Below, piece by piece: positions 17,148-42,689 of a DNA stretch of 64,000 nt. The stretch lies in the NCBI GenBank assembly GCA_026125795.1, contig JAHCKM010000003.1, positions 744,001-808,000 of the forward strand. The letters are read 5' to 3'. The stretch's first letter is position 1; the number at the start of each line of letters is the position of its first letter. Below the pieces are notes generated by a model that saw nothing but the letters and a program-made list of their open reading frames with translations, made no database searches and was not told the origin of the DNA. A program made the position numbers and the translations under genes. Source of the DNA: Burkholderiaceae bacterium (GTDB taxonomy: Bacteria > Pseudomonadota > Gammaproteobacteria > Burkholderiales > Burkholderiaceae_C).

Positions 17148-17158
17148 ACGCGTTTCAC
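17141..17158 (+). promoter_or_regulatory. Candidate PhoB box upstream of phnG
   Basis: CCGTCATACGCGTTTCAC: halves CCGTCAT and GTTTCAC start 11 bp apart, matching CTGTCAY at 6/7 and 5/7. It reads toward phnG and ends 38 bp before its ATG. It overlaps the first possible start codon of the divergent DUF1045 gene. Confidence 0.6.
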
Positions 17159-17196
17159 AAAGCGCCGACATCCTCTGCGCCGTCAATGGCACCCGT

Positions 17197-22696: not shown

Positions 22697-22759
22697 ATGA
22701 GCGCGCACGGCCGCTCCGAAGCGCGAATCCCGAAGCGCCCAGCGCGGAGGGTCCGATGA
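22697..22759 (+). other. Possible 20-codon leader ORF before phnL
   Basis: The ATG at 22697 opens 20 codons (MSAHGRSEARIPKRPARRVR) and stops at TGA 22757-22759, overlapping the phnL ATG as ATGA. If the IS110 element is removed at its ATGAG borders, the phnK stop would overlap this ATG in the same way. It may therefore have linked phnK and phnL translation before the insertion. There is no evidence that the peptide has a function. Confidence 0.35.
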
Positions 22760-26914: not shown

Positions 26915-27712
26915 TCAGATCAATCGCCTGCGCAGCTGCGCCGACACCAGATCGATCAGCGCCACCGACACCACCAGCATCAGGAGCACGGCGGCGGTCT
27001 GCGCATACTGAAAGCCCCGGATCACCTCCCACAGCACCATGCCGATGCCGCCGGCGCCCACCATGCCCACCACCGAGGCCGAGCGCACGTTGGCCTCGAA
27101 GCGGTACAGCGCATACGAGATCCACAGCGGCAGCACCTGCGGGATCACGCCATAGAGCACTTCGGCCAGCGGGTGCGCGCCGGTGGCGCGGATGCCTTCC
27201 ACCGGCTGCGGGTCGATCGCTTCCACCGCCTCGGAGAACAGCTTGGCCAGCGTGCCGGTGGTGTGCACCCACAGTGCCAGCACGCCGGCGAACGGACCCA
27301 GACCGACCGCGACGACGAACAGCAGCGCGAACACCATCTCGTTGATCGCGCGGCACGCGTCGAGAAAGCGCCGCACCGGATGGCGCAGCCACCAAGGCGA
27401 GAGGTTGCTGGCGGCCAGCAGCGCCAGCGGGATCGACGTGACGATGGCCAGCGCCGTGCCCCACACCGCGATCTGCAGCGTGACCACCAGCTCGTCGAGA
27501 TAGAAGCGCCACTCGCGGAAATCCGGCGGGAAGAAGCCGCTGGCGTACTGCAGCATGTTGCCGCTGTCGCGCCACAAATCGAGCGGGCGCATGTCGGCGC
27601 CGCGCCAGCTGCCGGCCAGCAGCGCCAGCAGCAGGCCCCAACCGAGCAGTGTGGCGAGGCCGTTGCCTTCGCGGCGCGGGAGCGGCGCCAGGCTCGGCGC
27701 GCCTGCGGTCAC
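26915..27712 (-). CDS. phnE: Phosphonate ABC transporter permease PhnE
   Basis: A 265-residue inner-membrane permease with a GTG start overlapping the phnD stop. The EAA-type loop reads [20 protein letters not shown], followed by the PhnE-characteristic [26 protein letters not shown]. Six or so membrane segments are visible. With PhnC and PhnD it imports alkylphosphonates or phosphonate-like anions. Confidence 0.93.
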
Positions 27713-28692
27713 TTGGCGCTGGCCACCTGGCGGCCCAGCTCGGCGAGCTTGTCGTCGATCTCCTGCAGGCGGCGCTTCTTCTCGTCGGTGGCCATGTTGG
27801 CATCGGCTTCGATCTTGCCGCGCTCGCGCGCCAGCTCGAGCTGGCGGATCGGCACCAGCTGCGCGTTGCTCGACGGCTTGAAGCCCGACAGCACCAGCGT
27901 GGCCAGGATCTTCTTCTCGCGCTCGTCGCGGCCGTAGCCGAGGAAGAAGTCGCGCACCTTGGCCTTGGTGGCGGCGTCGAGGTCCTTGCGCCACAACATC
28001 GGGTCGCTCGGGATCAGCGGCGAGCGCCACACCTCGCGCAGCTCGGCGGCCTTCTCTGGCTGCTTGATCTTCATGCGCGCCACGCCGTCGCTGGCCACCG
28101 TGGCCACGTCGATCTGCTTGCTCGCCACCGCCAGGATGTTGGTCTCGTGGTTGGCCCGCACCATGCGCTTGAAATCACGCGTCGGGTCGACCTTGTTCGC
28201 GGCGAACGCGTAGTAGCCGGGGACCAGCGCGGCGCTGGTGGAATTGGGGTCGCCGAAGCCGAGCGTCAGTTGCGCGCGCGCCTTCAGCACGTCTTCCAGC
28301 GTGCGCAGCGGGCTGTCCTTGTGCACGATCATCAGGCCCCAGTAGCCTTCCGAGCCGTCGGCGTTGACGATCTTGGCAAACACCTCGCCATTGGCGCGGT
28401 CCACCGCCTCGGCGCCGGACTTGTTGCCCATCCACGCCACCTGCACCTTGTTGAAGCGCATGCCTTCGATCACGCCGGCGTAGTCGGGCGCGAAGAACGC
28501 GTTCACCTTGATGCCGGTGACTTTCTGCATGTCGTCGAGCAGCGGCTGCCACGCATTCTTCAGGTTGGCCGACGACTCGGTGGAGATGATGCCGAAGTTC
28601 AGTTCGTTCACCTGCGCGGAGGCGGTGCCGAACCACAGTGCAGCCGTGGTGGCCAGCAGCGAGAGGGTGTTGCGTCGATTCATGATCGTCAT
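27709..28692 (-). CDS. phnD: Phosphonate ABC transporter substrate-binding protein PhnD
   Basis: A 327-residue periplasmic protein. The signal peptide covers about residues 1-27 ([21 protein letters not shown]). The mature part has [20 protein letters not shown], the ligand-site block [18 protein letters not shown], and [20 protein letters not shown], as in PhnD. The last 60 residues are charged and coiled-coil-like. Two starts are possible (28692 and 28683). phnC lies 28 bp upstream. Confidence 0.93.
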
Positions 28693-28720: not shown

Positions 28721-29548
28721 TCAGGCAGCCTGGAGTTCAGGCGCCGCGTCGAAATCGGCCGCTCGTTCGCCGGCCTCGATCAGTTCGTCGGCCTGCGAGT
28801 CGTACAGCTCGCGCAGCCGCTGCTTGCTCAGCGCACGCGTCGGGCCGTCGTAGACGATCTCGCCGTGGCGCAGCGCCACCGTGCGCGGACAGAATGCGAA
28901 CGCATAGTCCACCTGGTGCAGCGACACCAGCACGGTGGCGTTGAGCTCGCGATTCAGCTCGGCCAGCAGCGACATCACGCGCCGGCTCGACGTGGGGTCG
29001 AGCGACGCGATCGGCTCGTCGGCCAGGATGACCTGTGCACCTTGCACCACGGCGCGCGAGATCGCGGCGCGCTGCTGCTGGCCGCCCGACAACGTGGAGG
29101 CGCGCTGCCAGGCGCAGGCCTCGATGCCGACGCGCGTCAGCGCCGCATGGGCGCGCGCCAGTTCATCGGCCGGGAAGCGGCCGAGTGCCCAGCGCCAGGC
29201 CGGCATGCGGTACAGCGCACCGGCCAGCACGTTGGTCATCACCGGCAGCCGGTCCACCAGGTTGAACTGCTGGAAGATCATGGCCACCTTGGCGCGCGTG
29301 CGCCGCACGTGCGGCGCCAGGCGGCCACCGGCCTGCACAGTGGCGCCGAGCACCTCCACGCGGCTCTCGGATCCGGCGTCGGCCACGTGCAGGCCTGCCA
29401 GCGCACGCAGCAGCGTGGACTTGCCCGAGCCCGATGCGCCGAGCAGCGCCACCATCTCGCCGGGCCGCACCGACAGCGACACGTTGTGCAGCGCGGGCTT
29501 CGCGCCGAAGTGCTTGCGCAGGTTGCTGACTTCGATCGCTTTGGGCAT
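28721..29548 (-). CDS. phnC: Phosphonate ABC transporter ATP-binding protein PhnC
   Basis: A 275-residue ATPase with Walker [17 protein letters not shown], the PhnC-typical [20 protein letters not shown], signature [15 protein letters not shown] and Walker [14 protein letters not shown]. The ATG at 29548 is preferred over the GTG one codon upstream. It leads the phnC-phnD-phnE-HD transcript, and a strong candidate PhoB box lies 27 bp upstream. Confidence 0.94.
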
Positions 29549-29574
29549 CACGGCGGCGATGCTCGTGGCCGCCG

Positions 29575-29592
29575 ATGACGGCGCTGTGACAG
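29575..29592 (-). promoter_or_regulatory. PhoB box upstream of phnC
   Basis: On the minus strand it reads CTGTCACAGCGCCGTCAT: the halves CTGTCAC (7/7) and CCGTCAT (6/7) are spaced 11 bp apart. It reads toward phnC and ends 27 bp before the ATG, as expected for PhoB activation of phosphonate uptake. Confidence 0.75.
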
Positions 29593-29600
29593 CGCTGCGT

Positions 29601-30626
29601 CTACTCGCGGCGCGGCCGCAATCGCTTGAGCGCGAACAGCGCGATGGCGCCGGTCAAGGCGCCGATCAGGCCCACCATGATCCAGAAGCCCGTGGGGTGC
29701 TCTCCAAGGGGGATGCCGCCGACGTTCATGCCGAACAGACCCGACACCAGGTTGATCGGCAGCGCCATCACGGTGACCATGGTGAGCAGGAACAGGCTGC
29801 GGTTGTTCTCCTCGGCGACGCGTGCCGCGGCTTCGTCCTGCATCAGTTTGATGCGCTCCTGCAGCCCGGCGATGTCGCGCAGCACCAGCGCGAACTCCTC
29901 GTTGGCCTGGCGCAGTCGCTGCACGTCTTCGGCTGCGATCCAGGACGGCGGATTGACCAGCACGCGCATCAGCGCGCCCGGCTCGAGCGCGAGCAGGCGC
30001 TGCAGGCGCACCATCAGCCGGCGCAGGCGCGCCAGCTCGGCATCGTGGCGCCGGTGTTTGCCGGCCAGCACCTCGTCCTCGATGTCGTCGACGCGTTCGG
30101 TGGTCTTGCGAACCACGCGTTGCAGCTCGTCGGCCTGCTCGCGCAGCAGGTGGTCGAGCAACGCCACGCTGCTGGGCAGCGGCGTGCCGCGCCTGACCGC
30201 CATGCGCAGCCGGTCGACCGCGCGCAGCGGATGGCGCCGCGCGCTGACGACCACGTGCTCGCTCACCGACAGCCACAAGGTCGCGACGTCGCCGACGTCG
30301 AAGCTGAACTCGAACGCCACGTCGTTGACCACGGCGAACAGCACCTCGCCGTCACGCTCGATGCGGGTGCTGCGCGAGCCGGTGTTCAGGGCCTCGAAGA
30401 AGTTCTCGCTCAGGTTGGCGTGCTGGCGCAGCCAGCGTTCGGCGCCTGCGTGGCTCAGGTTGAAATGCAGCCAGACGAACCCGCGCCGAATGCCGCCGGG
30501 CAGGGGCGCGGCTTCGTTGAGCGGCTGCGCCGGTTCGCCCGGCACGAAGCGAAAGCCGCAGATCAGGCCATGCTCGTCGCTGCCGTAGGGCAGCACCGGC
30601 GGTGTCAGCAAGGTGGCGTTGTTCAT
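29601..30626 (-). CDS. CorA/ZntB-type metal ion transporter
   Basis: A 341-residue protein. The large N-terminal cytoplasmic domain ([24 protein letters not shown]) leads into long helices (residues about 170-270) and two C-terminal membrane segments. The signature GMN is present in [14 protein letters not shown], with the GxP extension typical of ZntB (Zn2+) rather than Mg2+ CorA. It forms pentameric channels in the inner membrane. It is divergent from ppk2; its 3' end lies 8 bp from the phnC Pho box. Confidence 0.88.
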
Positions 30627-30667
30627 CGGATGCGACGGCGATCGTAGTGACTGACGCAGCACGCCGC

Positions 30668-30696
30668 GCGTCACCAATCTGTCATATGACCTTCAC
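30668..30696 (+). promoter_or_regulatory. Tandem PhoB half-sites upstream of ppk2
   Basis: Three half-sites start exactly 11 bp apart: GCGTCAC (30668), CTGTCAT (30679) and CCTTCAC (30690). The middle one is perfect against CTGTCAY and the others match 5/7. They read toward ppk2 and end 28 bp before its ATG. Confidence 0.78.
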
Positions 30697-30723
30697 ACAA
30701 TGCGCGTTTGCCCGGCGACGGCC

Positions 30724-31641
30724 ATGAACGACAAAACCGACCACGGCGAACTGCTGCAGCGCCTGCAGAACGAATTGATCGACAGCTTCGACGAGGAGCT
30801 CGAAGTCGAATTCGAGGATCGCAGCCAGTTCGACCTCGACGCCGACGGGCCGCAGGCCGATGCCCGGCGCAACGAGCGGCGCGCCTACTTCAGGCAGCTG
30901 TTCCGACTGCAGGGCGAGCTCGTCAAGCTGCAGGACTGGGTGGTCGCCACGCGCCAGAAGGTGGTGGTGGTGTTCGAGGGCCGCGACGCGGCGGGCAAGG
31001 GTGGCGTCATCAAGCGCATCACGCAGCGCCTGAACCCGCGCGTGTGCCGCGTGGTGGCGCTGCCGGCGCCCAACGACCGCGAACGCACGCAGTGGTACTT
31101 CCAGCGCTACGTGCCGCACCTGCCGGCCGCCGGCGAGATCGTGCTGTTCGACCGCAGCTGGTACAACCGCGCCGGCGTCGAGCGCGTGATGGGCTTCTGC
31201 GGCGACGACGACGTGGAGGAGTTCTTCCGCTCGGTGCCGGAGTTCGAGCGCATGCTCACGCGCTCGGGCATCAAGGTGCTGAAGTACTGGTTCTCGATCA
31301 CCGACGAGGAGCAGCACCTGCGCTTCCTCAGCCGCATGCACGATCCGCTGAAGCAGTGGAAGCTGAGCCCGATGGATCTGGAATCGCGCCGCCGCTGGGA
31401 GGCCTACACCAAGGCCAAGGAGGCGATGCTGGATCGCACCCACATTCCGGAGGCACCGTGGTGGGTGGTGGAGGCCGACGACAAGAAGCGCGCCCGGCTC
31501 AACTGCATCGCGCACCTGCTGGGCCAGTTTTCCTACCGCGAGGTTGACCATCCTCCAGTGGTCTTGCCGCCGCGCGAGCGGCATCCCGACTACTCGCGCC
31601 GGCCGGTGCCGCCCGAGATGTTCGTGCGGGAAATCCACTGA
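30724..31641 (+). CDS. ppk2: Polyphosphate kinase 2
   Basis: A 305-residue PPK2-family kinase that moves phosphate between polyphosphate and nucleotides. Walker A is VFEGRDAAGKGGVIKRI, Walker B FDRSWYNRAGVERVMGF, and the lid region SRMHDPLKQWKLSPMDLESR. An acidic N-terminal extension of about 60 residues precedes the kinase core. The ATG of MNDKTDHGELL is chosen because upstream in-frame sequence (30700) lies just after the Pho box and looks like leader. Control by PhoB makes sense for a polyphosphate enzyme. Confidence 0.93.
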   Translation: MNDKTDHGELLQRLQNELIDSFDEELEVEFEDRSQFDLDADGPQADARRNERRAYFRQLFRLQGELVKLQDWVVATRQKVVVVFEGRDAAGKGGVIKRITQRLNPRVCRVVALPAPNDRERTQWYFQRYVPHLPAAGEIVLFDRSWYNRAGVERVMGFCGDDDVEEFFRSVPEFERMLTRSGIKVLKYWFSITDEEQHLRFLSRMHDPLKQWKLSPMDLESRRRWEAYTKAKEAMLDRTHIPEAPWWVVEADDKKRARLNCIAHLLGQFSYREVDHPPVVLPPRERHPDYSRRPVPPEMFVREIH

Positions 31642-31679
31642 GCGCCTGTTCACGCGCCGCCGGTGCGGCCGCGGCCGAG

Positions 31680-31697
31680 TCGTCACAGCGCTGTCAT
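31680..31697 (+). promoter_or_regulatory. PhoB box upstream of the olsB-like gene
   Basis: TCGTCACAGCGCTGTCAT: the second half CTGTCAT is perfect and the first half matches 5/7, spaced 11 bp. It reads toward the olsB-like gene and ends 25 bp before its ATG. Confidence 0.72.
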
Positions 31698-31721
31698 GCC
31701 GCCCGGGGAGCATGCGGGCTC

Positions 31722-32534
31722 ATGAACACCGCGCAACTGCAGCTCGATCGTCCCCACGTTCATCGGCATCTGCCGCCGGCGCCGCGACGCGGCCGCGACG
31801 AGTCTTCTTTCGATGTGCGCTGGGCACGCAGCGAGCGCGAGGTGGCCGAGGCGCAGCGCCTGCGTTACCAGGTGTTTGCCCAGGAGATGGGGGCTCGGCT
31901 GACGCCGATGCTCGGAATGCCGCCGATGCACGACGTGGATCGCTTCGACGAGCACTGCGAGCACCTGATCGTCCGGGCGCAACTGCCCGGCACCGGCGAC
32001 CGGTGCGCGGTCGGCACCTGTCGGGTGCTGACGCCGGCCGGCGCCCTGCGCGCCGGCGGCCTGTACAGCGACGACGAGTTCGACCTCACGCCGATCGATG
32101 CGCTGCGCCCGCTGATGCTGGAGCTCGGCCGCTCGTGCGTCGACCCGGCGTATCGCCAGGGCACGGTGGTGATGCTGCTGTGGAGCAGCATCGTGGCATT
32201 CATGCAGCGCAACGGGCTGCGCTGGGCCATCGGCTGCGCCAGCGTGCCGATGCGCGACGGCGGCCATGCCGCCGCCAGCCTGTGGCGCGGCTTGTGCGAG
32301 ACGCATCTCGCCGCGCCCGAGTGGCGCGTGACGCCGCGCCGCCCGTTGCCGGTGGAGCAGCTGCGCCAGGACCTGAAGGTCGAAGCGCCGCCGCTGATCA
32401 AGGGCTACCTGCGTTGTGGCGCGCAGCTGCTCGGCGCGCCGGCGTGGGACGCCGAGTTCGGCACCGCGGACCTGCCGCTGCTGATCGACGTGAAAGCGAT
32501 GTCGGATCGCTACCAGCGCCGCTTCACCGATTGA
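31722..32534 (+). CDS. olsB: OlsB-like N-acyltransferase (ornithine lipid synthesis)
   Basis: A 270-residue GNAT-fold protein of the ornithine-acyl-ACP N-acyltransferase/hemolysin-like family. The start of the domain is SFDVRWARSEREVAEAQRLRYQVFAQEMG, here read in pieces; MLELGRSCVDPAYRQGTVVMLLW and AIGCASVPMRDG are also characteristic. OlsB adds a 3-hydroxy fatty acid to ornithine to make lyso-ornithine lipid, a phosphorus-free membrane lipid that replaces phospholipid in phosphate starvation. The second enzyme, OlsA, is not in the window. Its 3' end overlaps the convergent membrane-protein gene by 11 bp. Confidence 0.82.
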   Translation: MNTAQLQLDRPHVHRHLPPAPRRGRDESSFDVRWARSEREVAEAQRLRYQVFAQEMGARLTPMLGMPPMHDVDRFDEHCEHLIVRAQLPGTGDRCAVGTCRVLTPAGALRAGGLYSDDEFDLTPIDALRPLMLELGRSCVDPAYRQGTVVMLLWSSIVAFMQRNGLRWAIGCASVPMRDGGHAAASLWRGLCETHLAAPEWRVTPRRPLPVEQLRQDLKVEAPPLIKGYLRCGAQLLGAPAWDAEFGTADLPLLIDVKAMSDRYQRRFTD

Positions 32535-33342
32535 TCGTGCGCCGTGGAAGCGGCGCGTGCACCAGCGCGATGCTGAGCCAGACGGCGACGCTGAAGTACA
32601 GCGACATCCACAGCACCTCGCTCTTCCAGTCTTCCCAGCGGTGCGACACCACCCAGCGCGCCGAGACGTCGAGCGCGCCCTGCGCCAGCGTGAGATAGGG
32701 GCGCCCCGCTGCCTCGTCGGCGAGCCAGCGCGACCAGTACATCGGTACGTCGACGGCGAACATGAACAGCACGTAGACCACGCCGGCGGCGCACCACAAG
32801 GCCATCAGCGGCCGCATCGACGGCGGGCAGCGCGGCCAGATCGCGAGCAGGCTCGCCACCAGCAACGCGGCACACAGGCCCCAGATCGTTTCTTCGATCA
32901 CATGACCGAGGTTCGACGTGGTCAGCACCGAGTACCACGAGAAGGCCTCCGCCACGGCGATCAGCGGCACCATGACCCAGGCGGCCGTGCGGCCGAAGCC
33001 GCTGCCGGTGGCGCGTGACGACTCGCGCAGCAGCAACGCCCACTGCGCCACGAAACACAGCTCGGCCACGGTGGCCACCGAGCGCCCGACCAGCACGCTG
33101 GACCACCAGGAATCGAACATCACCTGCCGTGGCACGTCGAAGACCGGCAGCACCGAGCGGTAGGCGCAGCCGAGCACATAACCGGCCGACAGCACCAGCA
33201 GCCAGCGGCGCAGCACGAACTCCGATGGCTCCAGGCGCGGCTGCCGAACGCCAAGCGCGACGCCGCTGGCCATCCAGCCCACGACATTGACCGCACTGAC
33301 CACGCACAGCACGGTCCACCACACGAGGACGGGATCTGTCAC
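32524..33342 (-). CDS. Uncharacterised multi-pass membrane protein in the Pho island
   Basis: A protein of about 272 residues from a GTG start, with seven or so hydrophobic segments (for example VLVWWTVLCVVSAVNVVGWM, LLVLSAGYVLGCAYRSVL, ALWCAAGVVYVLFMFAVDV). Conserved-looking charged or polar spots include EETIWGLCAALL and SHRWEDWKSEVLW. I do not recognise the family. It lies 32 bp downstream of the PlcP-like gene on the same strand, so it may be co-transcribed and serve the same lipid change. The start codon lies inside an inverted PhoB-box-like sequence, so a start further in is possible. Confidence 0.75.
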   Translation of the reverse strand: MTDPVLVWWTVLCVVSAVNVVGWMASGVALGVRQPRLEPSEFVLRRWLLVLSAGYVLGCAYRSVLPVFDVPRQVMFDSWWSSVLVGRSVATVAELCFVAQWALLLRESSRATGSGFGRTAAWVMVPLIAVAEAFSWYSVLTTSNLGHVIEETIWGLCAALLVASLLAIWPRCPPSMRPLMALWCAAGVVYVLFMFAVDVPMYWSRWLADEAAGRPYLTLAQGALDVSARWVVSHRWEDWKSEVLWMSLYFSVAVWLSIALVHAPLPRRTINR

Positions 33343-33353
33343 GATCCTGTCAT
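33336..33353 (+). promoter_or_regulatory. Perfect but inverted PhoB box
   Basis: CTGTCACGATCCTGTCAT: both halves match CTGTCAY at 7/7 with 11-bp spacing, the best match in the window. Yet it reads on the + strand, away from the membrane-protein gene whose GTG start it contains, and no + strand gene follows. Its function is unclear (antisense transcript, bidirectional action or chance). Confidence 0.5.
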
Positions 33354-33374
33354 CGTGCCATGCTGGTGCAGCCC

Positions 33375-34214
33375 TTACGTCAGGGTTGGTACGAGAGCCA
33401 GCGCTTCAGCCTGTGGCGTCGCGCCATGCGACCAATCGATGATCTCGAGCCGCCCGTCGGCGTGCTCCACCAGCGCGGTCAGGCTCTCGACCCAATCGCC
33501 GTCGTTGCAGTACAGCACGCCGTCGATCATGCGCATCTCGGCATGGTGGATGTGCCCGCACACCACGCCGTCCACGCCGCGGCGCCGCGCCTCGCGCGCC
33601 AGCGCGGCTTCAAAGTCGGAGATGAAGCTGACCGCGCGCTTGACTTTCAGCTTGAGGTACCTCGACAGGCTCCAATAGGGCAACCCGAGGCGCGCACGCA
33701 GCGAGTTGAAGTGGCGGTTCAGCTCGAGCGCCACGTCGTACATCTTGTCGCCCAGAAAGGCCAGCCAGCGCGCGTGCTGCACCACGCCGTCGAACAGATC
33801 GCCGTGCGTCACCCACAGGCGGCGGCCGTCGAACGTGCGGTGGACGCAGTCGTCCTCCACGTCGACGCCGCCGAAGTTGTGGCTGACGTAGCGGCGCGCG
33901 AACTCGTCGTGGTTGCCGGGCACGAAGACCACCTGCGTCCCCTTGCGCGCCTTGCGCAGCACTTTTTGCACCACGTCGTTGTGCGCCTGCGGCCAGTACC
34001 AGCTGCGCCGGAGCTGCCAGCCGTCGATGATGTCGCCCACCAGATACAGCGTGTCGCACTCGACGTGGCGCAGGAAGTCGAGCAGCGCCGCGGCGCGGCA
34101 GCCGGGCGTACCGAGGTGCAGGTCGGAGATCCACACCGTGCGAAAGCGGTGGCTCGCGGGTGGCTCCGGGATCGATGCGCCCGGTGCCGAGACGGCGGGG
34201 TCGTCGCGGCGCAT
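33375..34214 (-). CDS. PlcP-like metallophosphoesterase (phospholipase C type)
   Basis: A 279-residue calcineurin-like phosphoesterase. Metal-ligand motifs in order: WISDLHLG, LVGDIIDGW, VPGNHDE, THGDLFDG and CGHIHHAE. It resembles the LpxH/UDP-2,3-diacylglucosamine diphosphatase group, but the block DFLRHVECDTLYLVGD followed by HNDVVQKVLRKARKG is like PlcP, which removes the head group of phosphatidylcholine/PE/PG during phosphate starvation. The nearby glycosyltransferase and the PhoB box upstream support PlcP over LpxH. Precise substrate is inference. Confidence 0.82.
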   Translation of the reverse strand: MRRDDPAVSAPGASIPEPPASHRFRTVWISDLHLGTPGCRAAALLDFLRHVECDTLYLVGDIIDGWQLRRSWYWPQAHNDVVQKVLRKARKGTQVVFVPGNHDEFARRYVSHNFGGVDVEDDCVHRTFDGRRLWVTHGDLFDGVVQHARWLAFLGDKMYDVALELNRHFNSLRARLGLPYWSLSRYLKLKVKRAVSFISDFEAALAREARRRGVDGVVCGHIHHAEMRMIDGVLYCNDGDWVESLTALVEHADGRLEIIDWSHGATPQAEALALVPTLT

Positions 34215-34236
34215 GCGCAGAGCATTGCGTTATCGC

Positions 34237-34254
34237 AAGACACGCTCGTGACAA
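34237..34254 (-). promoter_or_regulatory. PhoB box upstream of the plcP-like gene
   Basis: On the minus strand TTGTCACGAGCGTGTCTT: halves TTGTCAC (6/7) and GTGTCTT (5/7), spaced 11 bp, followed by TAACGC as a possible -10. It ends 23 bp before the ATG, the same distance as at the glycosyltransferase gene. Confidence 0.65.
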
Positions 34255-34284
34255 GGCGCGCTTCTTGCCCCGTCCGTCGTTCCT

Positions 34285-34302
34285 CTGTCACCACCACGCC
34301 AC
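34285..34302 (+). promoter_or_regulatory. Weak PhoB-box candidate upstream of the lplT-like gene
   Basis: CTGTCAC at 34285-34291 is perfect, but the second half (ACGCCAC, 34296-34302) matches only 4/7. It reads toward the transporter gene and ends 44 bp before its ATG. Confidence 0.35.
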
Positions 34303-34345
34303 ATCGCGGCCGTCCAATGCCGCGGTCTCGCGTCGCACTGGGGTC

Positions 34346-35608
34346 ATGCCGCCGAGCTTTCACCGCATCAACGCCGCGCAGTTCCTCTCGGCGCTGGCCG
34401 ACAACGCGCTGCTGATCGTGGCCATCGCGCTGATGCAACGCACCGGACAGCCGGCCTGGTGGGTGCCGCTTTTGAGGTTCTTCTTCATCATCGCCTACGT
34501 CGGGCTCGCGCCGTTCGTCGGTGCGCTGGCAGATGCGGTGCCCAAGGCGCGGCTGATGGCATGGATGAACGCGCTCAAGTGGCTCGGCGCGGCGGCGCTG
34601 GCGCTGGGCCTGCACCCGCTGCTGGCATTCGGTGTCATCGGCATCGGCGCTGCGGCCTATGCGCCGGCCAAGTACGGCCTGGTCACCGAACTGGTCGAAG
34701 CTCAGCAACTGGTGGCCGCCAACGCCTGGATCGAGGTGACTGTGGTCTGTGCAGTGCTGTTGGGCACGGCCGGTGGCGGCTATCTGGTGAGCCGGGAGTT
34801 CGAGTCGACGCTGTTTGCGCTGGCGATCCGCAGCTGGGCGGTCGAGCAGCGGCTGGTCTCGGTGAGCCTGGCGCCGGCGCTGCTGGTGGTGCTGTTGCTG
34901 TACGGCGCATCAACGGCCATCAACTGGAGCATCCGCTGTGCCGCACCGCGCCTGGTGGCACTTCATCTGCCGGCGCTTGGCCGGGAGTTCGCATCTGCGC
35001 ACTGGACGCTATGGCGGGATCGCGACGGTGGCCGGCTGTCGCTGGCGGTCACGGCGGTGTTCTGGGGCGCCAGCGCGGTGATGCAGTTCGCCGTGCTGCG
35101 CTGGGCCACCGAGCATCTGGGCCTGTCGCTCACCGCCGCCGCCTATCTGCAGGCGGCGGTCGCCGTGGGGCTGGTGGTCGGGGCTGCCATCGCCGGGCGA
35201 CACGTGGCGCTGGCGCGCGCGCCGCGCATGATGTGGGCCGGCGTGGCGCTCGGCATGCTGGTGGCCCTCGGCCCCTGGCTGCGCGATCCGTGGTCCGCCG
35301 CCGCGCTGCTGCTGGCCGTGGGCACGCTGGGCGGCGTGTTGATGGTGCCGATGAATGCGCTGCTGCAGCACCGCGGCTGCGTGCTGCTGTCGCCGGGCCG
35401 CTCGATCGCCGTGCAAGGCTTCACCGAGAACGCCAGCGTGCTCGCCATGCTCGCGGTCTACTCCTGGACCGTGTGGCTCCAGGTGCCGATCACGCCGACG
35501 ATGGCCGGCTTTGGACTGGGGCTGGCGGCGACGATGGCGCTGCTGTGGTGGCGCTTTCGCGGCTTGTCGGGCCGACGTGTGCAGGACCGGGCGCAGCCTG
35601 CGGCATAG
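34346..35608 (+). CDS. LplT-like lysophospholipid transporter (MFS)
   Basis: A 420-residue, roughly 12-segment membrane protein. FLSALADNALLIVAIALM, FFFIIAYVGLAPFVGALAD, ARLMAWMNALKWLGA and GAAAYAPAKYGLVTELV match LplT, which flips lysophospholipids inward for reacylation; in many bacteria it is coupled to Aas, not seen here. Its position between the PlcP-like and glycosyltransferase genes suggests a role in lipid turnover. The ATG of MPPSFHRINAAQF is chosen; the upstream in-frame stretch covers the divergent gene. Confidence 0.85.
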   Translation: MPPSFHRINAAQFLSALADNALLIVAIALMQRTGQPAWWVPLLRFFFIIAYVGLAPFVGALADAVPKARLMAWMNALKWLGAAALALGLHPLLAFGVIGIGAAAYAPAKYGLVTELVEAQQLVAANAWIEVTVVCAVLLGTAGGGYLVSREFESTLFALAIRSWAVEQRLVSVSLAPALLVVLLLYGASTAINWSIRCAAPRLVALHLPALGREFASAHWTLWRDRDGGRLSLAVTAVFWGASAVMQFAVLRWATEHLGLSLTAAAYLQAAVAVGLVVGAAIAGRHVALARAPRMMWAGVALGMLVALGPWLRDPWSAAALLLAVGTLGGVLMVPMNALLQHRGCVLLSPGRSIAVQGFTENASVLAMLAVYSWTVWLQVPITPTMAGFGLGLAATMALLWWRFRGLSGRRVQDRAQPAA

Positions 35609-35622
35609 CGCGGCCAGCGCCG

Positions 35623-35640
35623 GGCCGCTCCCAAGCGGCC
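35623..35640. terminator. Hairpin between convergent genes
   Basis: GGCCGCT (35623-35629) pairs perfectly with AGCGGCC (35634-35640) around CCCA. It lies between the convergent ends of the LplT-like and glycosyltransferase genes. There is no T-run, so termination is only suggested by position. Confidence 0.4.
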
Positions 35641-35693
35641 GCGCGACCCGCTCGGCGGGTGGTGGCGCGTACTCGCGCCGCCGGGTGCGCCAT

Positions 35694-36926
35694 TCAGATA
35701 GCTGACGGCCGCAGCAGCAACGGGCTCTGGTTGGCTGCGTGACGCAGCACGGCGTGCAGCAGCACGGCCTCGAGGTCGTCGATCACATGGCGCCAGTCGA
35801 GCAGCGCGGCGCGTCCGCGGGCGTGTTGGCCGCGCACGCGCAATGAACGGCGGTCTCGTGCGACGTGCAGGGCCTGCTCGATGAACGCCGGGGCGTCGGG
35901 TGGCGGCACCAGCACGCCGCTGTCCGGGCTGACCAGTTGCGCGGCGGCCGCACAGTCGAAGGCCACCACCGGCAGCCCGCTCGCCATCGCTTCGGGCACC
36001 ACGTTGCCAAAGGTCTCGGTGAGGCTCGGAAACAGGAACAGGTCGGCCGACGCATAGTGCGCCGCCAAGTCGTCGCCGCGGCGCACGCCGGCCAACAGGG
36101 CCTCGGGCCAGCGGCGCTGCAGCGTCGCGCGCAACGGGCCGTCGCCCACCAGGACGAGCCGTGCCTTGATGCCGCCGGCGCTGATGGCATCGAAGGCGCG
36201 GCACAGCAGCTCGATGTTCTTCTCCTGCGCCAGGCGCGACACGCACAGCACGACCAGCGTGTCGTCGTCGGCACCCCAGCGCGCGCGCAGCGCCGCATGG
36301 CGGCGGCCGGGATGAAAGCGCACCGTGTCGACACCGCGCGACACCACCTCGAGGTTGGCGAAACCCAGATCCTCGAGCTGCCGGCGCATCGCCTGCGTGG
36401 GCACCATCGTGCAGGCGGTGCGGTTGTGAAAGCCGCGCAGGTAGCCGACGATGGGCCGCTGCAGCCAGGCCAGCCCGTAGTGCCGGCTGTACGCATGGAA
36501 GTTGGTGCGGAAGTCCGACACCACCGGCAGCTGCAGGCGGTGCGCGGCGCGCAGCGCGGACCAGCCGAGCGGACCTTCGGTGGCGATGTGCACCACGTCG
36601 GGCCGTTGTTCGGACCACAGCCGCTGCAGCGCGCCGCTGCACGGCACGCCCATGCGCAGCGACGGATAGCGGGGGATCGGCACGCCGCGCATCAACGCCT
36701 CGTTGAAGCGCACGCCTCTGAGCGGCACGTCACCCGTGTGCTGGCGCAGGCGCACCAGCTGGATCCGGTGCTGGCGTTCCTTCAGTCCTTCCAGCATGCG
36801 CTGCAGCGTGACCGCGACGCCGTTGACCTCCGGTGGATAGGTCTCGGTCACCACGGCCACCGACAGCGGCTGGCGCACCGCGGACAACACGTCGACTCTT
36901 GCGGGCAGGTCGGTCATCGCGTTCAT
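35694..36926 (-). CDS. GT4-family glycosyltransferase, probably glycolipid-forming
   Basis: A protein of about 410 residues. The N-domain has VAVVTETYPPEVNGVAVTLQ and HIATEGPLGWSALRAAH; the C-domain has VSRLAQEKNIELLCRAF and the nucleotide-sugar motif TETFGNVVPEAMASGLPVV (E-x7-E). The GT-B enzymes of this type near PlcP in other bacteria (Agt) put sugar on the diacylglycerol released by PlcP, giving glycolipids that replace phospholipids. The acceptor here is inferred from context. Starts at 36926 or 36917 are both possible; a strong PhoB box ends 23 bp before 36926. Confidence 0.85.
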   Translation of the reverse strand: MNAMTDLPARVDVLSAVRQPLSVAVVTETYPPEVNGVAVTLQRMLEGLKERQHRIQLVRLRQHTGDVPLRGVRFNEALMRGVPIPRYPSLRMGVPCSGALQRLWSEQRPDVVHIATEGPLGWSALRAAHRLQLPVVSDFRTNFHAYSRHYGLAWLQRPIVGYLRGFHNRTACTMVPTQAMRRQLEDLGFANLEVVSRGVDTVRFHPGRRHAALRARWGADDDTLVVLCVSRLAQEKNIELLCRAFDAISAGGIKARLVLVGDGPLRATLQRRWPEALLAGVRRGDDLAAHYASADLFLFPSLTETFGNVVPEAMASGLPVVAFDCAAAAQLVSPDSGVLVPPPDAPAFIEQALHVARDRRSLRVRGQHARGRAALLDWRHVIDDLEAVLLHAVLRHAANQSPLLLRPSAI

Positions 36927-36948
36927 GCGCGCATGGTTACGTCGCTGC

Positions 36949-36966
36949 GTCACAGCTTGATGACAG
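36949..36966 (-). promoter_or_regulatory. PhoB box upstream of the glycosyltransferase gene
   Basis: On the minus strand CTGTCATCAAGCTGTGAC: halves CTGTCAT (7/7) and CTGTGAC (6/7), spaced 11 bp. A possible -10, TAACCA, follows about 10 bp later, which would place the transcript start almost at the ATG. Confidence 0.75.
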
Positions 36967-36978
36967 CCGTTGCATCGC

Positions 36979-36996
36979 TCGTCACTCCCACGTCAC
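36979..36996 (+). promoter_or_regulatory. PhoB box upstream of the Mpo1-like gene
   Basis: TCGTCACTCCCACGTCAC: both halves (TCGTCAC and ACGTCAC) match 5/7 with 11-bp spacing. It reads toward the Mpo1-like gene, 70 bp before its GTG, and lies 12 bp from the divergent box of the glycosyltransferase. Confidence 0.5.
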
Positions 36997-37065
36997 ATGC
37001 GCCGCACACGATGCGCGGCGGGTGCGGCACCGAGCCGCGCCATCCGTGACAAGGAGGCAACGACA

Positions 37066-37668
37066 GTGAACTCGTTCATGAAGACACTGGCAGAACAGCG
37101 TTGGGACGACCACCGCTACTACCACCAGAGCCGCATCAACCAGAGCCTGCACCTGGTCAGCGCCATCGCGTTCTTGTGCGCCTACGCGATGTTGTTCATC
37201 GACCCCGCGCTGGCCGGGTTGCTCGGCTGGGGCGTGTCGATGGTCACGCGCCAGGCCGGACACTTCTTCTTCGAGCCCAGGGGCTTCGACCACGCGAACA
37301 ACGTGAGCCACGAGTACAAGGAAGCGGTCAAGGTGGGCTACAACCTGCAACGCAAGGTGGTGTTGATGTCCGCCTGGGCGCTCTCACCGTTGCTGCTGTG
37401 GTGGTCGCCGTCGCTGTTCGGTCTGATCGATCCGACGCCGGGAAGCGCCGGCTTCGTCCATGACGTGGGTCTGTTGTGGCTTGCGCTCGGCGTGGCCGGA
37501 CTGCTGGTGCGCGTGCTGCAGTTGATGGTGACGCGCGGCTTGGAGACCGCCTGCGTGTGGGTGGTGAAGATCCTGACCGATCCGGTCTACGACATCAGCC
37601 TGTACTGGAAGGCGCCGTACTTTTTGGCACGCGGCCAGTTGATCGACCCCGACCCGAACAAGCACTAG
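37066..37668 (+). CDS. DUF962/Mpo1-like membrane protein
   Basis: A 200-residue protein with a GTG start preceded by a strong AAGGAGG. It has three or four membrane segments. The polar motifs YYHQSRINQSLHLVSAIAF and VTRQAGHFFFEPRGF resemble the His motifs of DUF962/Mpo1 proteins; yeast Mpo1 is an iron-dependent dioxygenase of 2-hydroxy fatty acids. The assignment is tentative. Its PhoB box and neighbours suggest a part in fatty-acid or lipid changes under phosphate limitation. Its stop codon coincides with the end of the convergent aminotransferase gene. Confidence 0.72.
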   Translation: MNSFMKTLAEQRWDDHRYYHQSRINQSLHLVSAIAFLCAYAMLFIDPALAGLLGWGVSMVTRQAGHFFFEPRGFDHANNVSHEYKEAVKVGYNLQRKVVLMSAWALSPLLLWWSPSLFGLIDPTPGSAGFVHDVGLLWLALGVAGLLVRVLQLMVTRGLETACVWVVKILTDPVYDISLYWKAPYFLARGQLIDPDPNKH

Positions 37669-39330
37669 GCGCTGCGCCTCGAGAAGCGGTGGGCCAACAT
37701 CTCGCGCAGCACGCCGCGGCGGATGCCGCGGTTGGTGAGCGCCGGCATCGGCCCACCACCAGCCGTCGGCCTGCATCGCGCGCGCCGCGGCCACGAACAC
37801 CTCGAGCACCGCCTGAAAGTCGACTTCGGTGTGGTTCAGCGTGAAGATCAGTCGGCCGGTGCCGATCCAGCTCAGCGCCACGCCGTGCAGCCGCAGGTAG
37901 AACTGCAGCATCCAGTTGTAGCGCGAGGGCTCCGTGTAGAGCACCGTCCAGATGCTCGACAGGTTGGCCACGCGCACCGGCACGCCCGCGGCCTCGAGCG
38001 CGGCGTTGAAGCGTGCCGCGCGTGCGTTCCAGCGCTCGTCCAGGCCGTCGTAGAGCGCCGCCACCTCGGGGCTCTCGAGCCGGTCGAGGAACGCGCTCAT
38101 CGACGCCATCACCGCCGGGTGCGCGTTGAAGGTGCCGCGCGCGAAGCAGATGTCGGCCGGGCGTTCGTCGCGGAAGCGCTTCATCAGCGCCGCGCGCCCG
38201 CACACCACGCCCACCGGCAGCCCGCCGCCGAGCGTCTTGCCGTAGGTGACCATGTCGGCCTGCACGCCGAAGTACTCCTGCGCGCCGCCCTTGGCGAGGC
38301 GGAAGCCGACGAAGATCTCGTCGAAGATCAGCACGATGCCGCGCTCGCTGCACACCGCGCGCAGGCGCTTCAGCCAGTCCGCGTAGGCGGCGCGGTCGAC
38401 GCCGGCGCGGCGGCTGCTGTCCACCAGCGACGAGTCGCCCGGCGCACTGGCGTTCGGGTGCAGCGCCTGCAGGGGGTTGACCAGCACGCAGGCGATGTCG
38501 CGCCGGGTGCGCAGCACCGCGAGCGCACGTTCGTCCATGTCCTTGAGCGTGTAGGTCTCGCGCGGCGGCACCGGGTTGCCGGGGCCGGGCTGCACGTCCT
38601 CCCACCAGCCGTGGTAGGCGCCGCTGAAGCGCACCAGGTGGCGCCGGCCGGTGTGGTAGCGCGCCAGGCGCACCGCCTGCATCACGGCCTCGGTGCCGCT
38701 CATGTGGAACGAGACCTCGTCCAGGCCCGAGAGCGCCTTCAGGCGCTCGACGTTGCGCGCCACGCACGGGTGGTACGAGCCGAGCACCGGCCCCAGCGCA
38801 TCGGCGGATTCCACGGCCTCGCGAATGCAGGCCTTGTAGAAGTCGACGCCGAACACGTTGACGCCGTACGAACCGGTGAGGTCGTGCAGCACGTTGCCGT
38901 CGAGGTCGGTCAGCGCGGCGCCGGCGGCCGACTGCACGAACGCGCCGACGCGCAGGTGTTTGCGCAGGTGCTGCGCGTACTGGAACGGCACGCGGTAGGC
39001 GGCGGTGAACTGCAGATCGGAGATGCCGGCGCGTGCGGCGTCAGTGGCCTGCAGCGAGCGCGGGAAGCGCGCTTCGTAGCTGGCCTGCAGCCACTGCAGC
39101 GCGGCCTGGCGCCGCGCCTGCACTTCGGGCGGCGCGCCGTCGGAGCCGAAGAACTGCGCCTCGTCGTAGGCGTAGCCGGGCACCAGCGACGCCACACGCT
39201 TGGCCAATCGCGTATGGCCGGCCAGCGACGGGTGTTTGGCCGATGAAAGCTGCAGTCGGCGACGCGCCAGCACAAGCGCACCGACCAGCACCGCCGTCGC
39301 AAGTGCCGACAAGGCAAGGGTTTGACTCAT
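37665..39330 (-). CDS. Membrane-anchored class III aminotransferase, frameshifted near its end
   Basis: An N-terminal membrane segment (SQTLALSALATAVLVGALVL) precedes a PLP-fold enzyme like glutamate-1-semialdehyde aminomutase/class III transaminases: MSGTEAVMQAVRLARYHTGR, IFDEIFVGFR, and the PLP lysine in VTYGKTLGGGLPVGVV. Near 37752-37754 one extra base in a G-run throws the frame; unshifted, it would run to 37384 through the neighbouring + gene. Removing one G gives a plausible tail (PALTNRGIRRGVLREMLAHR...) ending at TAG 37665-37667. This may be a recent mutation or a sequencing error. It is divergent from psd; the substrate is unknown, possibly an amino lipid precursor. Confidence 0.8.
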
Positions 39331-39363
39331 GTGCGCTTCATACGCGCGCCGATTGACAGGACC

Positions 39364-40245
39364 ATGAACATCAAAACGATGCGCGACGGCGTGCTGCTGC
39401 ACGAAGGCCTGAACTTCGTGCTGACCAATCGCATACCGCGCCTGGCCGTCAACCGCGCGATCGGCTGGTTCAGCCGCATCGAGAGTCCATGGCTGACGCG
39501 GCTGTCGGTCGCGGTGTGGCGCTGGTTCACCGACCTCGACCTGAGCGATGCGCGCGAGCAGCGCTTTGGCAGCCTGCATGCGGTGTTCACGCGCGAGCTG
39601 CGGCCCGGCGCGCGGCCGATCGACCCGGACCGCAGCGCGCTGGTCAGCCCGTGCGACGCGATCGTGGGCGCCTGCGGCGACGTGCAGGGCCTGCGCGTGC
39701 TGCAGACCAAGGGGTTTCCGTACACGCTCGACCGGCTGTTCGGCAGCGCCGAGGCAGCGGCTCCATGGCGCAACGGCTGCTACGCGACGCTGCGCCTCAC
39801 GTCGAGCATGTACCACCGCTTCCACGCCCCGGTGGACGCGCGCATGGAACACGTGACGCACATCCGCGGTGACGCCTGGAACGTGAATCCGAGCGCCCTC
39901 AAGCGCGTGCCGGGGCTGTATTGCCTGAACGAGCGCGCGGTGATTCGGCTGCGCCTGCCTGATGGCGAGTCGCTGGCGCTGGTGCCCGTGGGCGCGATCC
40001 TGGTGGCGAGCATCCGGCTGCACGCGCCGCAACTGCACCTGCACCAGCGCTACGAGGGCGCCGACGAGATCGCCTGCGACGTGCCGCTGCACAAGGGCCA
40101 GGAACTCGGCTGGTTCGAGCACGGCTCGACCATCGTGCTGTTCGCGCCGCCGGGCTTCGTGTTGCGGCCGCACGTCGAACCCGGGCTGCGCATCCGGATG
40201 GGCGAGGCGTTGATGACGCTGCCGGTGCACGCGGCAAGCCGGTGA
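39364..40245 (+). CDS. psd: Phosphatidylserine decarboxylase
   Basis: A 293-residue proenzyme. SSMYHRFHAPVDARMEHVTH carries the catalytic-site His and the C-terminal motif HGSTIVLF contains the serine that becomes the pyruvoyl group after self-cleavage. It converts phosphatidylserine to phosphatidylethanolamine at the inner membrane. The start at MNIKTMRDGVLLHEG is favoured; an ATG at 39322 would reach into the divergent neighbour. A phosphatidylserine synthase gene lies about 2.4 kb downstream. Confidence 0.9.
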   Translation: MNIKTMRDGVLLHEGLNFVLTNRIPRLAVNRAIGWFSRIESPWLTRLSVAVWRWFTDLDLSDAREQRFGSLHAVFTRELRPGARPIDPDRSALVSPCDAIVGACGDVQGLRVLQTKGFPYTLDRLFGSAEAAAPWRNGCYATLRLTSSMYHRFHAPVDARMEHVTHIRGDAWNVNPSALKRVPGLYCLNERAVIRLRLPDGESLALVPVGAILVASIRLHAPQLHLHQRYEGADEIACDVPLHKGQELGWFEHGSTIVLFAPPGFVLRPHVEPGLRIRMGEALMTLPVHAASR

Positions 40246-41520: not shown

Positions 41521-42048
41521 TCAGCGCGCCGGAGCACTGCCGTCGCCGGCGCCCAGCGCGCGCTGCATCAGCACGGTGTCGACCCAACGCCCGTGCTTGA
41601 AACCCACCGATCGCAGCGTGCCGACCGCCTCGAAGCCGAGCCGGCGGTGCAGCGCGATCGAACCGGCGTTGCGGCTGTTGCCGATCACCGCGAGCATCTG
41701 GCGCCACGGACCGCGCTCGCAGCGCTCGATCAACGCCTGCAGCAGCGCGCTGCCGATGCCGCGCCCGTCGAGCCCTTGTGCGACGTAGACCGAGTCTTCC
41801 ACCGTGAAGCGATAGGCGGGCCGCGGGCGGTAGGCGGTGGCATAGGCGTAACCCAGCACGTGGCCGTCGAGCTCGGCGGCGAGGTACGGCAGGCCCGCCT
41901 TCAGCACCGCGGCGCGTCGCTCGGCCATCTCGGTGACCGACGGCGGCACTTCTTCGAAGGTGGCAATGCCGTGCAGCACATGGTGCGCATAGAGCGCCTG
42001 GATTGCCGGCATGTCGGACTCGGCGGTGTCGCGGAGCAGGACGGGCAT
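41521..42048 (-). CDS. GNAT acetyltransferase, phosphinothricin acetyltransferase-like
   Basis: A 175-residue protein. IQALYAHHVLHGIATFEEVP and ATAYRPRPAYRFTVEDSVYV are typical of the PAT/YncA-type N-acetyltransferases; the acetyl-CoA loop is QGLDGRGIGSALLQALIERC. The ending KHGRWVDTVLMQRAL is also characteristic. It probably acetylates amino acids or analogues such as methionine sulfoximine. Its start overlaps the stop of the DUF1643 gene, forming a two-gene unit. Confidence 0.85.
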   Translation of the reverse strand: MPVLLRDTAESDMPAIQALYAHHVLHGIATFEEVPPSVTEMAERRAAVLKAGLPYLAAELDGHVLGYAYATAYRPRPAYRFTVEDSVYVAQGLDGRGIGSALLQALIERCERGPWRQMLAVIGNSRNAGSIALHRRLGFEAVGTLRSVGFKHGRWVDTVLMQRALGAGDGSAPAR

Positions 42049-42575
42049 CACAAAGGCTGAAGCTGGCAGGTGTAGCGCAGCAGCAGCGGATGCGCCGGCG
42101 TGCCACAGCTGCAACGCTCGAGCACCATCGGCGAGATGCCGCAGGCACGGATGATGCGGATCACCTCGTCGGCGCGCGCAAAGCCGCTGGCGTGATGGCC
42201 CCAGGCGCACACCACGTGGCCGCCGCCGCGGTGCGTGGCCCGGGCCGTGGTCTCGATCCAGTCGTCGTTGAGCGGCCCGACCGGGTAGCCGGCCGCACGC
42301 AGGTCCTTGGGGTAGCGCGCCGCATGCGCGTACAGGTTCACCACGTCGATGCCGGCATAGCCAAAGCGCTTGGCAAAGCCCATGCACTTGCGGATCGTCG
42401 CATCGTCGACCGTGTCGTCGGCAAGACTGGGGTTGAGCATCACGAAGCACAAGGTGCCGCGCCCGAAGTGCCACGCGCGGCTCAGGTGGTAGCGGTAGCG
42501 CCGGTCATGGCTGAACACGGCGCTGCGGATGACGTCGTCGGTGTCGTCGGTCGGGTGAGGGCGTGTCGCGAGCAT
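42048..42575 (-). CDS. DUF1643 protein
   Basis: A 175-residue protein with the family blocks SHDRRYRYHLSRAWHF, CFVMLNPSLADDTVDDATIRK and VNLYAHAARYPKDL. DUF1643 members are often close to mobile or defence loci but have no settled function. The C-terminal CSCGTPAHPLLL is a typical ending. It is translationally coupled to the acetyltransferase gene that follows on the minus strand. Confidence 0.82.
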   Translation of the reverse strand: MLATRPHPTDDTDDVIRSAVFSHDRRYRYHLSRAWHFGRGTLCFVMLNPSLADDTVDDATIRKCMGFAKRFGYAGIDVVNLYAHAARYPKDLRAAGYPVGPLNDDWIETTARATHRGGGHVVCAWGHHASGFARADEVIRIIRACGISPMVLERCSCGTPAHPLLLRYTCQLQPL

Positions 42576-42689
42576 CGGCCGACACTGTGCCAAAAGTCGG
42601 CCGCCGCTCGCGTTACACGCTGTGACGGTTCTCGGGATACGCGGCGGGCGGGTCCGGGCGGCGCGGGGCGCGGAGGGCGCTTTCGGCCC

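Follow-up and report, generated by a model that had tools for sequence, protein, structure and literature searches.

Lipid renovation by a PlcP-type phosphoesterase and a GT4 glycosyltransferase is described in Pseudomonas aeruginosa (PMC8528852), marine bacteria (PMC4796936) and Methylosinus (PMC9239053). These reports place Pho boxes at the plcP clusters of P. aeruginosa (PMC8528852) and marine bacteria (PMC4796936), record ornithine lipids in Methylosinus (PMC9239053), and present the substitute glycolipids of P. aeruginosa as protective against a last-resort antibiotic (PMC8528852). We describe here a related island of genes in a Burkholderiaceae bacterium (order Burkholderiales; genome G000, 6.57 Mb; contig 3, positions 744001-808000, this whole stretch of 64,000 nucleotides being the window), in which genes for a PlcP-like phosphoesterase, a GT4 glycosyltransferase (GT4a) and an OlsB-like N-acyltransferase lie among PhoB-box-like sites and are followed by a trio coding for an Mpo1-like membrane protein, a class-III aminotransferase (AT3) and a second phosphatidylserine decarboxylase (PSD). 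The island is known in kind, as Pho-linked lipid replacement; what is new in it is the trio formed by the Mpo1-like gene and the two genes just beyond. It is probably a Pho-regulon cluster that saves membrane phosphorus, combining PlcP-GT4a-OlsB lipid replacement with the conserved trio as an added lipid branch.

Like the PlcP-Agt systems of P. aeruginosa, Phaeobacter, Pelagibacter and Methylosinus, the island has a PlcP-type and a GT4 gene. It differs from them in that plcP and GT4a do not form one unit, lplT standing between the two, and in the attachment of the trio. The olsB-plcP-GT4b clusters found in the same order have the same PlcP-like and OlsB-like orthologues, some with Pho-box-like sites, but their GT4b is 30-36% identical to GT4a of the window, and the trio, the lysophospholipid transporter LplT and the polyphosphate kinase PPK2 were not seen in the stretches taken around these clusters. 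Elsewhere, an olsB-plcP-ppk1 arrangement occurs together with the trio (loci L105, L114, L115, L125 and L130).

As we picture it, when phosphate is scarce PhoB would act at the tandem boxes of phnC, ppk2, olsB, plcP, lplT, GT4a and the Mpo1-like gene. PlcP would convert phospholipids to diacylglycerol, GT4a would glycosylate the diacylglycerol with glucose or glucuronate, and OlsB would produce ornithine lipid together with an OlsA encoded elsewhere. LplT would transport lysophospholipid so that it can be used again, polyphosphate metabolism would fall to PPK2, and phosphonates would be taken up through phnCDE. The trio would add a lipid branch, probably amine-bearing; each enzymatic step, including the action of the trio on lipids, is predicted from gene families and setting. 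The replacement of phospholipids when phosphate is limiting influences how phosphorus cycles through soils and waters, and the Pho-linked trio, near-perfectly paired across genomes, points to a substitute lipid that, like the trio itself, was not met in the literature searched, subscription papers being mostly outside that search.

PhoB boxes in the island and in relatives

Boxes were sought as CTGTCAY-N4-CTGTCAY, with half-sites 11 bp apart, and scored by mismatches. All seven sites with two or fewer mismatches in the window are inside the island, and they constitute seven of the 49 found genome-wide (31 with the reversed pattern); at the density outside the island, 0.05 would be expected in these 8 kb (Poisson P ~2e-13, or ~3e-10 after multiplying by 1,622 windows). 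Five sites in the genome have at most one mismatch, three of them in the island and the other two forming a divergent pair between ppk1 and pstS, at a locus that also has pstC, pstA, pstB, phoB and phoR, all above curated cut-offs. At three or fewer mismatches boxes are not enriched in the 64-kb window (11 sites versus 14.5 expected), a count that is uninformative alone.

A PhoB matrix was derived from 93 sites in relatives, with the window excluded and the same-genus locus L061 among the sources; it is not independent of the consensus, because its training sites were picked by that consensus. Of the 11 best hits of this matrix in the window, ten are inside the island, in agreement with the preliminary description, which had placed Pho boxes there; chance expectations (table) refer to 64 kb of sequence from a Markov model. 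The description had further assigned a box to each of six genes, and this is clear for phnC, ppk2, the OlsB-like gene and GT4a, where the boxes are strong. The lplT boxes are moderate, and those of the PlcP-like and Mpo1-like genes are weak; these last two are insufficient alone and are backed by boxes at the same genes in relatives. Counted from the listed starts, the boxes lie 25 bp from olsB (the 18-base box before the ATG), 23 bp from plcP and 24 bp from phnC.

Boxes at orthologous genes were counted in the upstream regions of 119 loci and the window that passed length and start filters; counts are of sense boxes with three or fewer mismatches, after removal of the window and of near-duplicate regions (at least 90% identical, e.g. 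from loci L069/L145 and L096/L140), and expected values are means of 40 permuted half-sites with the window included. Boxes precede 58 of 80 MPO1 genes (3.9 expected), 39 of 76 PLCP genes (1.3), 52 of 64 GT4a genes (1.9), 12 of 35 GT4b genes (0.9), 13 of 32 AT3 genes (0.7), 12 of 27 LPLT genes (1.4), 11 of 18 OLSB genes (0.7) and all six PPK2 genes (0.2). These counts are not independent events, because the relatives share ancestry, the Bradyrhizobium loci being notably alike. A same-genus genome (G002) has a 1-mismatch box ~24 bp before plcP. Of 25 non-duplicate GT4a genes with a box of two or fewer mismatches, the distance from box to inferred start is 20-26 bp in 16 (in 18 of 28 if duplicates are kept). 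Antisense boxes were also frequent before duplicate removal (GT4a 48/70, MPO1 53/88), since most loci have GT4a and MPO1 side by side in divergent orientation.

The matrix was also applied to 21 loci outside the training set, at a threshold of 13 bits and with permuted matrices as control. The threshold is reached in 23 of 63 upstream regions, versus 0.56 for permuted matrices; locus L206, near-identical to training loci, gives one of the 23, and its removal leaves 22 of 60. The regions that pass include those of AT3 (6/10), MPO1 (8/21), GT4 (6/12), methyltransferase (2/6) and UDP-glucose dehydrogenase (1/3) genes. Taken with the clustering in the window, the boxes at orthologous genes strongly support Pho control, from which we infer PhoB binding and regulation.

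The Mpo1-like, aminotransferase and decarboxylase trio

The preliminary description ended the island at 37668, which is too early: the Mpo1-like gene belongs with AT3 and PSD just beyond. The three form a conserved unit, well supported by its recurrence, with Pho boxes recurring before the Mpo1-like and AT3 genes. Among the best 80 of 551 confirmed Mpo1-like matches (the named loci, with a few near-duplicates among them, and including Rubrivivax, Tepidimonas, Variovorax, Hydrogenophaga, Pelomonas, Methyloversatilis and Bradyrhizobium), all 80 have MPO1, 78 have AT3 and 77 have PSD; the loci without AT3 (L122 and L123) or PSD (L122, L123 and L180) end at a contig edge. GT4 of either kind is present in 76 (GT4a in 57 and GT4b in 20), PlcP in 40, LplT in 26 and OlsB in 15. 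Twenty further stretches include AT3 in 17 and PSD in 19, and one of them (L201) ends at a contig edge.

Across 399 genomes of the order, MPO1 is found in 41 (E<=1e-20) and AT3 in 40 of these same 41 (E<=1e-150); each of the 40 has the two genes next to each other in convergent orientation, separated by -2 to 135 bp. PlcP-like orthologues (E<=1e-40) occur in 197 of the 399, being present in 36 of the 41 MPO1 genomes versus 161 of the 358 others (odds ratio 8.8, Fisher P 7e-8, uncorrected for ancestry). MPO1 is present in 25 of 398 genomes of a phylum-wide sample. We note that plasmids also carry these genes. In Sphingomonas parapaucimobilis plasmid NZ_CP155753.1 (385 kb; L218) the Mpo1-like gene stands with a methyltransferase, an aminotransferase and a decarboxylase, close to genes annotated as a fatty acid desaturase and an N-acetyltransferase, and in B. 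diazoefficiens pNK6a an Mpo1-like gene lies amid transposases with no annotated trio, in a gene table that is incomplete.

The Mpo1-like protein has 63 columns that are at least 97% conserved in 86 homologues, several of them His. Its structure model (predicted local distance difference test, pLDDT, 87) gave no fold match at E<=0.001, and its profile gave one chance-level match to solved structures (E 0.68). Its candidate Fe dioxygenase chemistry is presumed from yeast Mpo1, which acts on 2-hydroxy fatty acids.

The aligned part of AT3 is one open frame with no stops inside, read from 39339 to 37753, and covers positions 5-534 of the 556 in the profile. PF00202 scores above its cut-off in AT3 orthologues (110.6 bits for that of L062), and Lys 365 (window numbering), conserved in at least 97% of 80 proteins, is by its motif presumably the pyridoxal-phosphate (PLP) lysine. 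The model of AT3 has a mean pLDDT of 82 and an N-terminal helix (residues 13-41, pLDDT ~66-81) whose sequence reads as a membrane anchor. The nearest solved structure is the aminotransferase domain of mycosubtilin synthase (6kfm; sequence E 1.6e-43, Foldseek E 3.8e-28), from which AT3 differs in standing alone, in its extra anchor-like N-terminal region and in its setting among lipid genes; glutamate-semialdehyde aminomutases and beta-selective transaminases are the next matches. An ethanolamine-phosphate phospho-lyase was considered for AT3 and dropped, the name being absent from 59 solved matches at E<=1e-10.

The trio PSD is a paralogue of the main decarboxylase of the genome, which scores 245.6 bits, and its true start is possibly at a downstream ATG. 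It shares with the E. coli type the TIGR00163 match, the GST cleavage motif and the conserved D and H, and differs in its linkage to AT3 and MPO1 and in having HGST where the E. coli-type enzyme has LGST.

Candidate lipid products and competing explanations

Several observations weigh against the island being a Pho-controlled lipid-replacement cluster with the trio as a branch of it. Neither AT3 nor PSD of the window has a box of three or fewer mismatches upstream, and the best that the matrix gives before AT3 is 8.6 bits, a score at which 18 hits per 64 kb are expected. In relatives few PSD genes have a box (5/28, 0.5 expected), no box precedes the 19 phnC matches outside the window (ABC ATPase genes, many probably paralogues; 0.2 expected), and among the non-training regions none of the PSD (0/6), PLCP (0/3) or LPLT (0/2) regions reaches 13 bits. 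Four of the 80 named loci have no detected GT4 (L109, L116, L151 and L178, with L151 cut just before the Mpo1-like gene). In three of these, 10 kb or more of sequence is available on the side where GT4 normally lies, and the trio may thus be independent of glycolipid synthesis. In genome G099 (L207) a partial match to MPO1 stands with PSD and GT4a while AT3 is undetected, and the second MPO1 copy of genome G743 (L204) stands alone. Beyond 37753 the last residues of AT3 are in another frame than in relatives, the frame being open to 37384, which may reflect an altered gene or an error in the sequence.

Neighbouring genes in relatives give hints as to products. UDP-glucose dehydrogenase (15 of the 80 named loci) and GT28 (14 of 80) occur near the trio, which is consistent with glucuronosyl- or glucosyl-diacylglycerol. 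A PmtA-like methyltransferase is present in 17 of the 80, chiefly in Bradyrhizobium, and in L199, L200, L203, L205 and L206; the best NCBIfam model for that of L127 is phospholipid N-methyltransferase PmtA (151.8 bits, under the cut-off of 390). Together, an aminotransferase, a decarboxylase and a PmtA-like N-methyltransferase would fit an ethanolamine-like head group. Three distant loci (L197, L198 and L202) have a one-strand order of AT3, a domain fused to GT4, PSD and MPO1, followed in L198 by UDP-glucose dehydrogenase and in L202 by an acyltransferase and GNAT domain protein whose layout we take to be that of OlsF. The domain fused N-terminally to this GT4 is of ~540 residues (L197:11608-14484, L198:2344-5025, L202:5350-8175); in the three full-length proteins Pfam recognised the GT4 part alone, and for two of them a scan of the first 330 residues gave no match at E<=10. 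Its motifs DLHCHD, TNHN, PHP and DDH resemble, as a guess on our part, a PHP-type phosphoesterase, and the protein is perhaps a phosphoesterase-glycosyltransferase fusion.

We tentatively suggest, as one possibility among several, that the trio is a Pho-controlled pathway to an amine-bearing, phosphorus-free lipid that replaces phosphatidylethanolamine. AT3 would aminate a membrane-bound carbonyl and PSD would decarboxylate an amino-acid-like head group; some alphaproteobacterial PmtA-like enzymes might then methylate the amine to give a choline-like substitute, and the trio could work beside GT4 and PlcP, with the fused domain in place of PlcP in a few distant genomes.

It is doubtful that there is instead no trio lipid, with PSD a spare maker of phosphatidylethanolamine and AT3 and the Mpo1-like protein recycling phospholipid-derived amines or fatty acids. 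Such recycling would suit the working-decarboxylase residues that PSD keeps, the presence of a second PSD in the genome, and the substrates of yeast Mpo1. However, the N-terminal helix of AT3 reads as a membrane anchor, its nearest solved relative comes from a lipopeptide synthase and acts on an acyl chain, and the near-perfect pairing of AT3 with MPO1 argues for one pathway.

An amination by AT3 of a beta-keto acyl chain, yielding a beta-amino acyl tail and not a new head group, appears unlikely. The 6kfm domain is the best solved match by sequence and fold, and the mycosubtilin-synthase aminotransferase domain works on beta-keto acyl chains, but the fold match has an identity of 27%, and glutamate-semialdehyde aminomutases are almost as good a match.

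That the phosphoesterase serves lipid A synthesis as LpxH, in an envelope cluster with incidental boxes, is highly improbable: it shares a superfamily with LpxH, its highest NCBIfam scores are to LpxH models (40.4 and 39.4 bits) and plasmid records name orthologues UDP-2,3-diacylglucosamine diphosphatase, but these scores are far under the cut-offs of 134 and 190.35, the genome has a far better LpxH match elsewhere (178.6 bits, itself slightly under 190.35) to which the protein is 28% identical over 90 residues, the Pho boxes are conserved, and the neighbours are olsB and ppk genes. The LpxH identity was rejected on the low scores (39.4-39.5 bits on TIGR01854) and the much better match elsewhere, in line with the PlcP-like label of the preliminary description. 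Its proposal of PlcP-type lipid replacement is supported further by relatives, several of which have the order olsB-plcP-GT4b, often then ppk1 and sometimes beside phoX or pst, and others a GT28 related to diglucosyl-diacylglycerol synthase adjoining plcP; boxes precede some of the orthologous genes there, but the extent of the island was drawn too short.

Gene content and neighbourhood

The left part of the region has the order phnE-phnD-phnC (leftwards), a CorA/ZntB-like gene (leftwards), ppk2 and the OlsB-like gene (rightwards) and memA (leftwards), and the right part has the PlcP-like gene (leftwards), lplT (rightwards), GT4a (leftwards), the Mpo1-like gene (rightwards), AT3 (leftwards) and PSD (rightwards). 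A phosphonate C-P lyase cluster is located to the left of phnCDE. Features and coordinates are collected in the table.

Table. Genes and PhoB boxes of the island and its surroundings (window coordinates; box scores in matrix bits, with hits expected per 64 kb)
Feature	Coordinates	Strand	Evidence or remark
PhnG match	within 17098-17664		C-P lyase cluster
PhnK	20407-21213		C-P lyase cluster
PhnL	within 22474-23517		C-P lyase cluster
PhnM	23487-24659		C-P lyase cluster
phnE	match in open reading frame 26915-28030		PhnE, 298.7 bits, cut-off 216.7
phnD	27709-28692		after phnC; PhnD model 320.3 bits, cut-off 261.1
phnC, phosphonate ABC transporter ATPase	28721..29548	-	TIGR02315 278.6 bits, cut-off 266.1
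PhoB box of phnC	29571..29592	-	1 mismatch; 19.9 bits, 0.00 expected
CorA/ZntB-like metal transporter	29601..30625	-	PF01544 170 bits (open reading frame 29601-30677)
Two overlapping PhoB boxes (three half-sites) of ppk2	30668..30700	+	19.6 and 20.9 bits, 0.00 expected
ppk2, polyphosphate kinase 2	30700..31641	+	TIGR03707 377 bits, cut-off 301.8
PhoB box of olsB-like gene	31680..31701	+	17.8 bits, 0.28 expected
OlsB-like N-acyltransferase (ornithine lipid)	31722..32534	+	PF13444 106 bits, cut-off 22.4
memA, membrane protein	32524..33322	-	no assigned family
Best PhoB box of window, at memA 5' end	33336..33357	+	0 mismatches; 24.1 bits, 0.00 expected
plcP-like calcineurin-type phosphoesterase	33375..34214	-	PF12850 and PF00149, above Pfam cut-offs
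Weak PhoB box of plcP	34233..34254	-	12.2 bits, 3.4 expected
Two overlapping weaker PhoB boxes of lplT	34274..34306	+	15.0 and 13.6 bits; 0.78 and 1.5 expected
LplT, lysophospholipid transporter	34346..35608	+	NF008397 436.6 bits, cut-off 297
GT4a glycosyltransferase, candidate diacylglycerol glycosyltransferase	35694..36926	-	PF13692, PF00534, PF13439
PhoB box of GT4a	36945..36966	-	1 mismatch; 21.2 bits, 0.00 expected
Weak PhoB box of Mpo1-like gene	36979..37000	+	12.7 bits, 2.6 expected
Mpo1-like membrane protein, candidate Fe dioxygenase	37066..37668	+	PF06127 19.9 bits, under cut-off 24
AT3, class-III PLP aminotransferase (aligned part)	37753..39339	-	68% identical to L062 protein
Second phosphatidylserine decarboxylase (PSD)	39322..40245	+	TIGR00163 153.9 bits, cut-off 111.75

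The families read in the preliminary description hold for phnC, PPK2 and LplT, which are above curated cut-offs, and for GT4a and the phosphoesterase, which are above those of Pfam. They are looser for the Mpo1-like protein, under the PF06127 cut-off, and for the OlsB-like protein, which misses both curated OlsB cut-offs (161 versus 320 bits and 151 versus 350 bits). The best NCBIfam match of GT4a is the lipid glycosyltransferase model NF053787 (150 bits, under the cut-off of 480). One of two membrane proteins first listed without a family is CorA/ZntB-like, with a gene divergent from ppk2 and 120 bits on the ZntB model (cut-off 292). The other, memA, keeps that status, Pfam and NCBIfam scans giving no family at E<=0.001; its homologues are in L061, L096/L140 (the same contig), L112 and L209. 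The perfect box at its 5' end faces away from memA, toward the 3' end of plcP, with no annotated start, and boxes in this reverse orientation also occur near memA of L061 and of L112 (there further upstream), whereas L096/L140 and L209 have none near memA.

To the right, beyond PSD, there is a match to PssA-type CDP-diacylglycerol-serine O-phosphatidyltransferase (42003-43361; 115.1 bits, cut-off 107), preceded by an alpha/beta-hydrolase-like reading frame that is under Pfam cut-offs. The PssA match was left out of the module because no homologue was found at E<=1e-8 in the 119 loci searched.

To the left, the eleventh of the best matrix hits (17141, rightwards) is just upstream of the PhnG match, and is part of a divergent box-like pair at 17141-17203 that faces a putative phosphonate-metabolism gene (16428-17381, leftwards); the Pho-linked region may therefore span ~17-40 kb. 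Within the C-P lyase cluster, phnK and phnL are separated by an IS110-family transposase gene (21225-22523), which overlaps the reading frame listed for phnL.

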